This document shows, one piece after another, positions 24,654-30,781 of a DNA stretch of 64,000 nt. A program made the translations under genes and the position numbers. The stretch is taken from the NCBI GenBank assembly GCA_035461765.1, contig DATHUY010000035.1, positions 1-64,000 of the forward strand, written 5' to 3'. How positions within the stretch are numbered: the stretch's first letter is position 1; each line of letters begins with the position of its first letter. Under the pieces are notes generated by a model. The model made no database searches, was not told where the DNA came from, and saw only the letters and a program-made list of their open reading frames with translations. Source of the DNA: Longimicrobiales bacterium. GTDB lineage: Bacteria; Gemmatimonadota; Gemmatimonadetes; Longimicrobiales; RSA9.

Positions 24654-25271
24654 TCACATGAGATGACACTCCACGCACGTGCGTCCGGCGAAGTGCGCCC
24701 GCAATTCGGTGTGGCATACCAGACAGAAGCTGCGCGTCTTCGGCAGCGCGTCGATGCGCACTTCCTCGTGACATGCGTCGCACCCGGCATGCACACTGCG
24801 CGGATGATCGGCGGCGGCGGGCTGGTGGCACAGGCTGCACTCGCTGTCGGCGACATGCGTCCGGTGACAGCCGGCGCAGGCGGTGCCGACGTTCAACGCA
24901 CCGACCGACATCCGATCCGCGCCCGGCCTGACGTGGCAGTCGACACAGTCGAGCGGCGTCCCGGCCTCGCGTGCGGCCCGCACGTGCGCCACGTGATCGA
25001 ACGATGAACGATGCTCCGCCAGCGGCGCTGTCCACTGTACGGTCGCCAGCTGCCCGCCGTCATGACAGTTCAGGCATGATGGCAGCTCCGGATACATCGA
25101 CGCGCCGGGATCGAGAGCGGCCGCGTGGCAGCCGGCACAGAGAGGGAAGAGGCGCGCGTGGGCGGAATGGGGAAAGGCCTCCTGCGCCACGAGCGGCTGG
25201 CACGGAATGGCGCAGAACACCGCCAGCGCCGTGATCGGCAGCAGGGCTGAGAACGCGAGTCGGTTCGTCAT
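24654..25271 (-). CDS. Exported eight-haem c-type cytochrome
   Basis: A 205-aa periplasmic multihaem cytochrome. A signal peptide (residues 1-30, ending PLVAQ) is followed by exactly eight CxxCH haem-binding motifs at residues 45, 66, 109, 132, 145, 164, 183 and 199, plus scattered histidines for axial ligation (HSAH, FDHVAH, RTHV). The haem density, one per about 22 residues, is that of cytochrome c3/c7-like or DmsE-type electron conduits. The start at 25271 (MTNRLAFS) has AGGA 5 nt upstream. It is alone on its strand, and no membrane quinol oxidase subunit adjoins it. The electron partner is unknown; the nearby cupredoxins are possible but unproven. Confidence 0.92.
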   Translation of the reverse strand: MTNRLAFSALLPITALAVFCAIPCQPLVAQEAFPHSAHARLFPLCAGCHAAALDPGASMYPELPSCLNCHDGGQLATVQWTAPLAEHRSSFDHVAHVRAAREAGTPLDCVDCHVRPGADRMSVGALNVGTACAGCHRTHVADSECSLCHQPAAADHPRSVHAGCDACHEEVRIDALPKTRSFCLVCHTELRAHFAGRTCVECHLM

Positions 25272-25471
25272 GACGTCCTGCAATCCGGCGGACGGTCCCC
25301 TCCGGCGCAACCGGAATACGAGTGGCCGGTCGCGCGACAGGAGCGCGACGCCGCGCGGGCGTCGCTCCAGCCGTCAGCCGCCCGCTGCATCGACGCATTC
25401 TCCACGCCACGGGAGCGCGGGATCACTACCGCCGCTTTTGCCGTGACGACCACCCGATCCGGAGTCATCCG

Positions 25472-26710: not shown

Positions 26711-27319
26711 CTACCTGTTTTCGCTCGCCGGTACGCTCACGCGGATCAGCCCGCGGAAATCGCCCGGCGTATAGCCGGTCGCACGGTCCTCGGGGTAGCG
26801 CTCCGCGATCACGGCACGCACATCCGGCGCAATCGAGTCCACCGGGCCGTGGCACTGCACGCACAGCTGCACGACACGCAGCGGCTCGTAGTAGCGGTGC
26901 CCCGCGGCGCCCGCGTTCTGCACCCAGCTCGCCGGCAGGTCTCCTGCCGAGTCGGCGACGCTCTGGAAATACGCGAGCGCGGCCTGCTCCAGTGAATCGG
27001 GCGCATTGCGCGGATTGCGTACGCGCGTCGAGGTGCGTTTCATGGCGATGCCCGCGCCGAGCGCGCCGCTGATCGAATCGGTCAGATTGCCCGCCTCCAG
27101 TGCACATACATCGATGGCGCTCGCCGTGCCGCCGCTGTCGATCGCCGCCGTCAGTCGCTGCACCAGCGTCTGGCGCAGCTGCCGCGCCGCCGTCCCGCCG
27201 ACACTCGCGACCTCCGCTGCATTCACTGGCTCGCTCGCCGCCGTCTCTGCACGTTCGGAACTATCGCAGCCGGCGCTCAGGACCAGGGTCGCAGCCAGCA
27301 CGTATTGGAGAGATCGCAT
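26711..27319 (-). CDS. DUF3365-like (Tll0287-type) haem lipoprotein
   Basis: A 202-aa lipoprotein (lipobox LSAGC, Cys18). After a helical region (ARQLRQTLVQRLTAAIDSGG, AIDVCALEAGNLTDSIS) comes TSTRVRNPRNAPDSLEQAAL, the hallmark of the DUF3365 heme-PAS-like family. A single CxxCH (residues 153-157, QLCVQCHG) follows for covalent haem. These proteins act as periplasmic redox or gas sensors or electron carriers. AGGAGG lies 6 nt before the ATG at 27319. It is the second haem protein within 3 kb. Confidence 0.85.
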   Translation of the reverse strand: MRSLQYVLAATLVLSAGCDSSERAETAASEPVNAAEVASVGGTAARQLRQTLVQRLTAAIDSGGTASAIDVCALEAGNLTDSISGALGAGIAMKRTSTRVRNPRNAPDSLEQAALAYFQSVADSAGDLPASWVQNAGAAGHRYYEPLRVVQLCVQCHGPVDSIAPDVRAVIAERYPEDRATGYTPGDFRGLIRVSVPASENR

Positions 27320-27529
27320 TACCGCCTCCTCGTGGATCGGGCATGCGGCAGCGGCCGCTGACCGGCCGCACCGCATTCATCGAGTCTAGCACCGGTCGCG
27401 ACCCGCCGCGAGACGGCACCCCTGCCGCGCGGATGACACCTGAAAATCCGGGATGCAGTGTCGCGCCACCTCCCGTGCGATATTGAGGAGAAGCCCGAGG
27501 GCAATCGTGTCTCCTGCACCGGTGATACC

Positions 27530-28332: not shown

Positions 28333-29232
28333 ATGCATATCTCCCGTGCGACCGCTGCTTTCCTCCTCATCGCCACGGCCGCCTGCAGCGGCAGCGACGG
28401 CGGAGGTACCACCGATCCGCCTGCGACCGGCACGGTCTCCGGCCAGGTGACGGCAGCGGGCACGGGTGTGCCGGGCGCGACTCTGACACTGACCCAGGCG
28501 GCGACTAACCGGACGGCCACGTCGTCGGGCACGGGCGCATTCTCGTTCGCGGCCGTGGCGGCGGGATCCTGGACGCTCGGCATCACGGCGCCGGCGGGTT
28601 TCGCGCTGGCGGCGGGTCAGGCGGCGAGCGTGCCGGTGACGGTGACCGGCGGGCAGACGGCGACGGCGAACTTCACACTGACGAGCACGCTCTCGAGCAT
28701 CCGGGCGACGGTGACGGCGTCGAGTCAGCCGCGGTCGAACGTAACGATCAACCTGTACAATGCGGATGCGACGGCTACGCGTGCGTCGCAGGCGACGAAC
28801 GCGACGGGGGCTGCGGTGTTCACGGCGCTGCCGGCGGCCGGCTACGACGTGGAGGTGGTGCCACCGGGCGGTTTCCAGCTGGCGCCGGGCGAGAACGCGA
28901 AGAAACGGGTGACGACGACGGCGGGGGCGGAAGCCAGCGTGGGCTTCACGCTCGCGCCGATACCAGGCGCGCAGGTGGTGGAGGTGGAGCTCACGGGGAC
29001 CAGCTTCGTGCCGGCGGACATCACGGTCGCGGTGGGCACGACGGTGCGGTGGATCTATCGCAGCGGCGGGCCGCACACGGTGACGCCGGACGGACACACG
29101 CGCTGGACGGAGGTGTCGCTGACGACAGCCGGACAGACGTTCGAGCACACATTCACGACCACCGGTGTGTTCAACTACTACTGTAGCCCCCATCGCAGTG
29201 CCGGCATGACGGGCGTGGTACGCGTGCAATGA
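28333..29232 (+). CDS. Lipoprotein with carboxypeptidase-regulatory-like domains and C-terminal cupredoxin
   Basis: A 299-aa lipoprotein (lipobox ATAAC, Cys18). Residues 32-118 form one carboxypeptidase-regulatory/Cna-B-like beta domain (SGQVTAAGTGVPGATLTLTQ) and about 120-207 form a second. Residues 212-299 are a plastocyanin/azurin-like domain with all four type-1 copper ligands: His248 (GGPHTV), Cys284 and His287 (YYCSPH), and Met292 (AGM). GGAGG lies 5 nt before the ATG. It is the first of three genes joined by ATGA overlaps, each ending in a cupredoxin. It is probably an outer-membrane or periplasmic electron carrier; the partner is unknown. Confidence 0.9.
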   Translation: MHISRATAAFLLIATAACSGSDGGGTTDPPATGTVSGQVTAAGTGVPGATLTLTQAATNRTATSSGTGAFSFAAVAAGSWTLGITAPAGFALAAGQAASVPVTVTGGQTATANFTLTSTLSSIRATVTASSQPRSNVTINLYNADATATRASQATNATGAAVFTALPAAGYDVEVVPPGGFQLAPGENAKKRVTTTAGAEASVGFTLAPIPGAQVVEVELTGTSFVPADITVAVGTTVRWIYRSGGPHTVTPDGHTRWTEVSLTTAGQTFEHTFTTTGVFNYYCSPHRSAGMTGVVRVQ

Positions 29233-30398
29233 CGCGGATCGCGATCGTGTCGACGAGGCGGTGCACGCCGGCGACGCGCGGGTTCATTGCGACGACGGCG
29301 CTGCTGCTGTCGGCGGCGCTGTGGACGCCGCCGGCACCACTGGCGGTGTCGGCAGCGCCGCTGCATGCGCAGTCGCTGCTCGAGCAGCCGCCGAACCTGG
29401 GCGGGACGTGGACCGCGGCGCCGGGCGTCCTGCACTTCAATTTCCTGCATCGCTTTCAGGCGACGGATGCCCCCGCACGCAAGGTGCTGAACTCGCCGAC
29501 GTTCCTGCTGTCGGTGGGTCTGCCACGCCGCCTGGCGCTCGGTGCGCGTTACGCGACGAACTCGCTGGTGCGCACGGGATTCCCGAACGAGTGGGAGCTG
29601 TTCGGACGCTGGCAGGCGCTGTCGCAGCAGGCGGGCTCACCACTCGACGCGGCCGTGCACGCGGGCTGGAACCAGGTGGCCGGCAGCGCGGACGGTGAGC
29701 TCACGCTGGCGCGCACGTTCGGGCGCATGCGGGTGCTCGCGGCGGCGCGCGGCTTCTCCGATGCGTATCATACCGGCGCCGCACGCGCGGCGATCGCGGG
29801 TGGTGCGACGATCTCGCTCCACGAGTGGGTGTCGGTCGCGGGCGACATCGGCACACTGATCGACGTCGATGACAGCGAGCCGGCATGGAGCGCGGGCCTC
29901 CAGCTGCGGATCCCGTACTCGCCTCACACGCTGTCACTGCACGCGTCGAACGCGAACTCGACCACACTCCAGGGCGCGTCGCGCGGCGTCGATGCCGTGC
30001 TCTGGGGCTTCGAGTTCACCGTCCCATTCACGCCCAGCCGCTATTTCGGCGGCCGCAGCGCGGCAGGTGCGGCGCCTGCGGACACCGGCCGCATCGCGGC
30101 CGAAGTGACGATGACGGACCGGCTGCTGTTCGCGCCGGACACCGTCGTGATCCGCGCGGGGAGCGCCGTGCGCTGGACGAACGCGTCGGTGCTGCCGCAT
30201 ACCGTGACGGCCGACCCCGCAAAGGCGGCGCGCGCGGGCAACGTTCAGCTGCCCGCTGGTGCGAAGACGTTCGATTCGGGCGACATGCCGCAGGGCGCCG
30301 TGTTCGTCCACACGTTCACCGTGCCGGGCACATACCGTTACGTCTGCATCCCGCACGAGCTCGCGGCCATGGTCGGTGTCGTGGTGGTGCAGCCATGA
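29229..30398 (+). CDS. Predicted outer-membrane beta barrel fused to a cupredoxin
   Basis: A 389-aa exported protein with a long signal region (about 1-47, ending PLHAQ). Residues 50-275 are a barrel-like series of strands (LHFNFLHRFQATD, LLSVGLPRRLALGARYATNS, EWELFGRWQAL) resembling DUF5777-type barrels. Residues 290-389 are a cupredoxin with His324 (LPHTV), Cys373 and His376 (YVCIPH), and Met381. Fusion of a barrel to a copper electron-transfer domain is unusual. The ATG overlaps the previous stop by 4 bp, and its own stop overlaps the next ATG, so the three genes are co-translated. The barrel family assignment is tentative. Confidence 0.82.
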   Translation: MTRIAIVSTRRCTPATRGFIATTALLLSAALWTPPAPLAVSAAPLHAQSLLEQPPNLGGTWTAAPGVLHFNFLHRFQATDAPARKVLNSPTFLLSVGLPRRLALGARYATNSLVRTGFPNEWELFGRWQALSQQAGSPLDAAVHAGWNQVAGSADGELTLARTFGRMRVLAAARGFSDAYHTGAARAAIAGGATISLHEWVSVAGDIGTLIDVDDSEPAWSAGLQLRIPYSPHTLSLHASNANSTTLQGASRGVDAVLWGFEFTVPFTPSRYFGGRSAAGAAPADTGRIAAEVTMTDRLLFAPDTVVIRAGSAVRWTNASVLPHTVTADPAKAARAGNVQLPAGAKTFDSGDMPQGAVFVHTFTVPGTYRYVCIPHELAAMVGVVVVQP

Positions 30399-30781
30399 AA
30401 CGAATCGCATTCATCGCGGCGGTACTGCTGACCGCGTGCGTATCCGAGGCGCCGGAGCCGACCGACCCCGGGACGGGTGATGTGACGATCGACATGACGT
30501 CACAGCTCACGTTTGCGCCGGCCGCCGCGCAGGCGCGCGTCGGGCAGACGGTGGTCTGGGAGAACGAATCCTCGATGGCCCACACCGTCACCGCCGATCC
30601 GGCCCTCGCCGGCAACCCCGCCAGCGTCTCCCTGCCCGCTGGCGCTGCGCCGTTCGCGTCGCCGCTCATCGGCGCAGGCGCCAGCTTCAGTCACACGTTC
30701 ACCGTTCCGGGGACCTACCGGTACTTCTGCCAGCCGCACGAGGGGGCCGGCATGATCGGGACGATCGTCGTGGTGCCGTAA
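30395..30781 (+). CDS. Single-domain cupredoxin lipoprotein
   Basis: A 128-aa lipoprotein (lipobox LLTAC, Cys15) with a single plastocyanin-like domain. The copper ligands are His63 (MAHTV), Cys112 and His115 (YFCQPH), and Met120 (AGM). It closely resembles the C-terminal domain of the preceding protein (shared HTFTVPGTYRY), so one probably arose from the other by duplication. It starts inside the upstream stop (ATGA). It is likely a small membrane-tethered electron shuttle. Confidence 0.93.
   Translation: MKRIAFIAAVLLTACVSEAPEPTDPGTGDVTIDMTSQLTFAPAAAQARVGQTVVWENESSMAHTVTADPALAGNPASVSLPAGAAPFASPLIGAGASFSHTFTVPGTYRYFCQPHEGAGMIGTIVVVP

Follow-up and report, generated by a model that had tools for sequence, protein, structure and literature searches.

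The window, the whole stretch of 64,000 nucleotides analyzed here, comes from a Longimicrobiales bacterium (Gemmatimonadota; contig DATHUY010000035.1). At positions 28333-30781 of its plus strand lie three genes, and each of the three encoded proteins has a C-terminal plastocyanin-type domain with a full His-Cys-His-Met set. Both junctions between the genes are 4-base ATGA overlaps. The features are the following:

28333-29232, plus strand: gene 1, 299 aa (Pfam matches, copper ligands, lipobox-like ATAAC read by eye)
29229-30398, plus strand: gene 2, 389 aa (Copper-bind, AlphaFold2, Foldseek, hhalign to DUF5777)
30395-30781, plus strand: gene 3, 128 aa (Copper-bind, 66.1 bits)
29367-30044, plus strand: predicted barrel domain of gene 2 (relatives' profile, 341 bits over 226 positions; 12 strands)
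29229-29232, plus strand: ATGA overlap of the gene 1 stop and the gene 2 start (sequence; overlaps also available in relatives)
30395-30398, plus strand: ATGA overlap of the gene 2 stop and the gene 3 start (sequence; allowed at 18/26 downstream junctions in relatives)

A preliminary description of this DNA had reported three ATGA-joined genes, each with a copper domain; its positions and overlaps are exact, and a check of the three protein sequences found every ligand residue that it named to be correct. Pfam Copper-bind (PF00127) matches proteins 1, 2, and 3 with 53.4, 48.7, and 66.1 bits, respectively, against a cut-off of 21.2. The plastocyanin equivalog TIGR02656 has a cut-off of 87.85 bits, which the three proteins do not reach (57.9, 55.8, and 66.5 bits), and the window's cupredoxins also stay below the NCBIfam amicyanin cut-off. 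Judging from the overlaps, a stoichiometric translation of the three genes is plausible.

Two other genes of the window should be mentioned. An exported multihaem cytochrome with eight CXXCH motifs in about 200 residues, resembling Cytochrome_C7 and class III cytochromes, is encoded at 24654-25310, a few kb from the operon and on the opposite strand. A Tll0287-like lipoprotein with one CXXCH motif is encoded at 26711-27376, also on the minus strand.

The product of gene 1 is lipoprotein-like and consists of two prealbumin-like domains followed by the C-terminal type-1 copper domain. Pfam recognizes a CarboxypepD_reg/SpaA-like domain (residues 34-117) followed by an SdrD_B/SpaA-like one (134-192); the copper ligands are H248/C284/H287/M292, with the loop CSPHRSAGM. 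Gene 3 encodes a small lipoprotein-like cupredoxin (H63/C112/H115/M120, loop CQPHEGAGM) whose closest solved relatives are plastocyanins. The lipobox-like signal sequences, ATAAC in protein 1 and LTAC in protein 3, were read by eye.

Gene 2 encodes, in this order, a signal peptide (by eye), a 12-stranded DUF5777-like barrel (residues 47-272), and a C-terminal type-1 copper domain with the ligands H324/C373/H376/M381 and the loop CIPHELAAM. No CXXCH motif is present in this protein. An AlphaFold2 model of the mature protein, made with 53 relatives, gave a mean pLDDT of 93.3 and a pTM of 0.77, with twelve strands over residues 22-221, then a short linker and a separate cupredoxin; the barrel alone reached a pLDDT of 93.3 and a pTM of 0.87. 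Using Foldseek, the cupredoxin was matched to plastocyanin 2plt (TMt 0.81), and the barrel alone mainly to small outer-membrane channels (FapF, VhGalP, KdgM, NanC, and OmpG), with PcoB (7pge) lower among its matches (rank 50, TMq 0.47). Protein 2 is thus predicted, with high confidence, to be a closed outer-membrane barrel of antiparallel strands with a plastocyanin domain. Pfam and structure prediction agree with the three different carriers, one of them a barrel, that the preliminary description had proposed. In the model, the loops after the odd strands have 7, 9, 4, 9, 8, and 17 residues, and those after the even strands 3, 8, 2, 2, and 6. Because the odd loops are longer than the even ones, as in the usual topology, both barrel termini would be periplasmic, and the copper domain, which follows the last strand, would then face the periplasm as well.

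No Pfam model, DUF5777 (PF19089) included, matches the window's own barrel, and no solved relative of it was found by sequence. DUF5777 is, however, weakly matched by 11 of 37 relatives of the barrel (best E 2e-6), and a profile-profile comparison (hhalign) of the barrel family with the canonical DUF5777 proteins from Gemmatimonadota gave 97.2%, with an E of 4e-11 over 202 columns. On these two grounds, we assign the window's barrel to a DUF5777-like divergent clade, that is, to a divergent relative of the Pfam family. No paper naming the DUF5777 family was found in the literature searched, with most subscription journals lying outside that search.

A search of 395 sampled Gemmatimonadota genomes, with a profile built from a closer set of relatives rather than from the mixed 37-row alignment, found the barrel in 96 of them, about a quarter, in 55 genera. 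When bacteria and archaea were scanned, each species by one genome, with two peptide patterns that were both taken from close relatives, only Gemmatimonadota or unnamed MAGs were returned. Searches of plasmids yielded lone cupredoxins only, and nothing with a canonical DUF5777 query. The cupredoxin is fused to the barrel at 59 of the 61 loci analyzed. One of the two exceptions (L057) breaks off where its contig ends; the other (L056:7182-8465, in G029) is a split form, in which a gene for a cupredoxin lipoprotein begins six bases after the end of the barrel gene. In the named set, 61 of the 65 full-length barrels are fused, and the four unfused ones comprise two at contig ends, one that, judging by its reading frame, seems frameshifted, and L179, which no cupredoxin follows.

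The copper site is also conserved. All 59 fused relatives keep Cys-x2-His-x(2-4)-Met plus the upstream His, so the ligand residues, whose loss in close homologues would have counted against the preliminary description, are retained throughout. In 49 of the 59 fused domains, the gap between His and Met is two residues, typically in the loop CTPHPFM, which we take to be the loop of amicyanin. Nine relatives have the plastocyanin-like gap of four residues, as in the window, and in the cupredoxins next to such long-loop fusions, His and Met are always separated by four or six residues (10/10).

The three-gene layout itself is less constant. At least one same-strand cupredoxin gene lies within about 2.6 kb of the barrel gene at 41 of the 61 loci, on both sides at 10 of them; 20 loci have none. 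The expectation that the homologues co-occur therefore held for a majority of the loci, but not for the three genes as a unit: the exact architecture of the window (SpaA-type protein, barrel, small lipoprotein) was seen only in two genomes (G132 and G157), both of the window's own family. What is conserved as a unit is thus the fusion of barrel and cupredoxin and not the three-gene layout. Of 26 junctions downstream of the barrel gene, 18 allow a 4-base start/stop overlap, as do 10 upstream ones. In a tree of 127 copper domains, built on 92 columns and unsure in its deep forks, most downstream copies fall near the fused ones, while the upstream copies form several separate groups with different carriers. 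These upstream carriers include SpaA-like lipoproteins, small exported proteins, and Big_2 proteins, the last with a pair of copper domains. Extra cupredoxins have joined the fusion locus repeatedly, the upstream copy being of several separate origins. At loci of family f3 (L047:5364-9215, L050, L051, L052, and L065), the cluster holds five copper domains, two of them on one Big_2 protein and one each on a small exported cupredoxin, the barrel fusion, and a further cupredoxin downstream.

Beyond the cupredoxins, no other neighbor was convincingly conserved beside the barrel across families, and in one group the barrel is solitary and adjoins housekeeping-type genes. In the relatives, the barrel has no conserved haem gene beside it, YceI was not found beside the fusion, and no donor, acceptor, partner-enzyme, or copper-homeostasis gene was conserved among the neighbors. 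An association with sensor kinases was rejected, as the cluster found near eight barrels consists of unrelated kinases and response regulators sharing domains. About 0.6 kb past one barrel gene, and near no other barrel, there is a histidine kinase with an ethylene-receptor-like ETR1_N domain (L035:3063-4250, minus strand); ETR1_N is a copper-binding domain in plants. Among candidate electron acceptors, NosZ was not associated with the barrel (p = 0.15), and NirK was weakly so, with a p of 0.04 that is uncorrected for ancestry.

Canonical DUF5777 was found by search in 67 of the 395 genomes, in one of which (G103) the match is the fusion itself. The typical canonical operon in Gemmatimonadota encodes a C-x4-C-H lipoprotein with weak similarity to planctomycete cytochrome c, YceI, and the DUF5777 barrel. 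Four genomes outside the class have, where read, a Rieske protein and DUF2231 beside the DUF5777 barrel; two such loci of another class are L243:5836-8136 and L244:5896-7870, the former with a CXXCH lipoprotein as well. Both barrel types occur together in 1 of 295 genomes, when about 15 would be expected (p = 8e-8, a value that ignores ancestry and is confounded by lineage), and within family f2 in 1 of 94 (p = 7e-4, ancestry likewise ignored). This near-exclusion suggests a single module that exists in a copper and a haem version, the one taking the place of the other. The two types adjoin in the only genome that has both, G098 (L058:5599-10087), where a barrel-cupredoxin gene and a cupredoxin gene lie directly upstream of those for a cytochrome-like lipoprotein and a canonical DUF5777 barrel, on the same strand. 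Genome G104, which belongs to the same genus, has this locus (L231) but lacks the copper genes there.

Taken together, the operon probably encodes an outer-membrane-anchored periplasmic electron-transfer module based on type-1 copper, a reading we hold with moderate confidence. The 12-stranded DUF5777-like barrel would anchor a plastocyanin-type domain to the outer membrane, on its periplasmic side, and in the window's lineage two extra lipoprotein cupredoxins would be made together with the fusion and serve as exchange partners. The system most likely works as the DUF5777-cytochrome-YceI operons found in Gemmatimonadota do, with copper replacing haem. What the computation shows is the domains, the kept ligands, the predicted barrel, the constant fusion, the recurring cupredoxin neighbors, and the overlaps. 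Its periplasmic side, its function in electron transfer, the exchange among three copper centers, and its equivalence to the cytochrome module are what we infer, electron transfer in particular because the type-1 sites are intact and the cytochrome module offers a parallel. The ligands, the fusion, the neighboring cupredoxins, the overlaps, the predicted folds, the homology to DUF5777, the near-exclusion, and the adjacency in G098 all speak for such a module and make it slightly better than an even bet. Weighing against it are the lack of a conserved donor or acceptor nearby, the 20 of 61 loci without an adjacent cupredoxin, the weak recognition of the C-x4-C-H lipoprotein as a cytochrome, and statistics that are blind to ancestry.

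An alternative is that the operon handles copper: the barrel would pass copper ions across the outer membrane and the cupredoxins would buffer or store them in the periplasm, in the manner of PcoB/CopB and periplasmic copper proteins. All modules are predicted to bind copper, and PcoB, a small-barrel copper transporter, is among the structural matches, albeit at rank 50. Nevertheless, we consider this function unlikely, as no copper-homeostasis gene is conserved beside the barrel, the operon has no Pfam copper-resistance match, and the complete type-1 site, strictly kept as is typical of electron carriers, also counts against it. The resemblance of the barrel to small channels such as FapF, KdgM, NanC, and OmpG, with the copper domain on a short linker at the presumed periplasmic end, fits a redox port, in which a small reduced compound would enter via the barrel and be oxidized at the fused copper site, while the other cupredoxins feed a periplasmic chain. 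It is possible that a diffusible donor enters through the pore. Such a port would be haem-free, the electron being taken at the periplasmic mouth and passed on by the co-made cupredoxins; we think it improbable, and no partner enzyme is conserved near the barrel. To our knowledge, the outer-membrane redox systems known so far all rely on haem, and if the port were real, a whole phylum would have an outer-membrane redox entry on copper alone.

The strong form of the preliminary description, a direct copper wire from the periplasm to the cell surface, is not supported. Lipoproteins can be surface-exposed and three copper centers are co-encoded, but a cupredoxin of about 100 residues cannot fit inside a 12-strand barrel, which makes such a wire very unlikely. 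Moreover, no chain of cofactors crosses the membrane, and the copper domain comes after the final strand of a barrel whose loop lengths are those expected with both ends in the periplasm.

Gemmatimonadota have a conserved protein family in which an outer-membrane barrel and a blue-copper domain form one polypeptide, and beside whose genes other cupredoxin genes have repeatedly been placed. The electron-transfer reading that we favor gives a first functional frame to the DUF5777-like barrel and to the cupredoxins that accompany it, both of them poorly described groups, and the near-exclusive relation to the haem-type DUF5777 operon makes the mutual replacement of haem and copper modules a testable idea. 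The preliminary description knew of no system with this layout, and none was found in the literature searched. Nor did that literature, which left out most subscription journals, contain a description of a barrel-cupredoxin fusion, and this conserved protein of Gemmatimonadota is apparently undescribed.

Several known systems share parts of this arrangement. Like the fusion locus, the canonical DUF5777 operon encodes a homologous barrel together with a small redox-type lipoprotein; there, the lipoprotein is cytochrome-like with a C-x4-C-H motif and stands where the fusion locus has cupredoxins, and the barrel has no fused copper domain. The window's cupredoxins have the fold (2plt, TMt 0.81 for the domain of protein 2) and the ligand set of plastocyanin and amicyanin, which are, unlike the window's proteins, known as soluble single domains. 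PcoB/CopB is likewise a small copper-linked outer-membrane barrel and a structural match (7pge), but Pfam does not match the window's barrel to CopB, and many other small barrels resemble it more closely. MtrAB, MtoAB, and PioAB also combine a barrel with redox proteins at the outer membrane, the barrel having 26 strands around a multihaem wire (PMC10654088); their multihaem partner is conserved, whereas the fusion has 12 strands and no haem gene conserved next to it. The nearest described idea to the barrel-cupredoxin fusion is the Cyc2 fused cytochrome-porin, in which an outer-membrane barrel and a redox domain also form one polypeptide (PMC10654088). Cyc2 uses haem and has about 17 strands, whereas protein 2 of the window lacks CXXCH and combines 12 predicted strands with a C-terminal copper domain.
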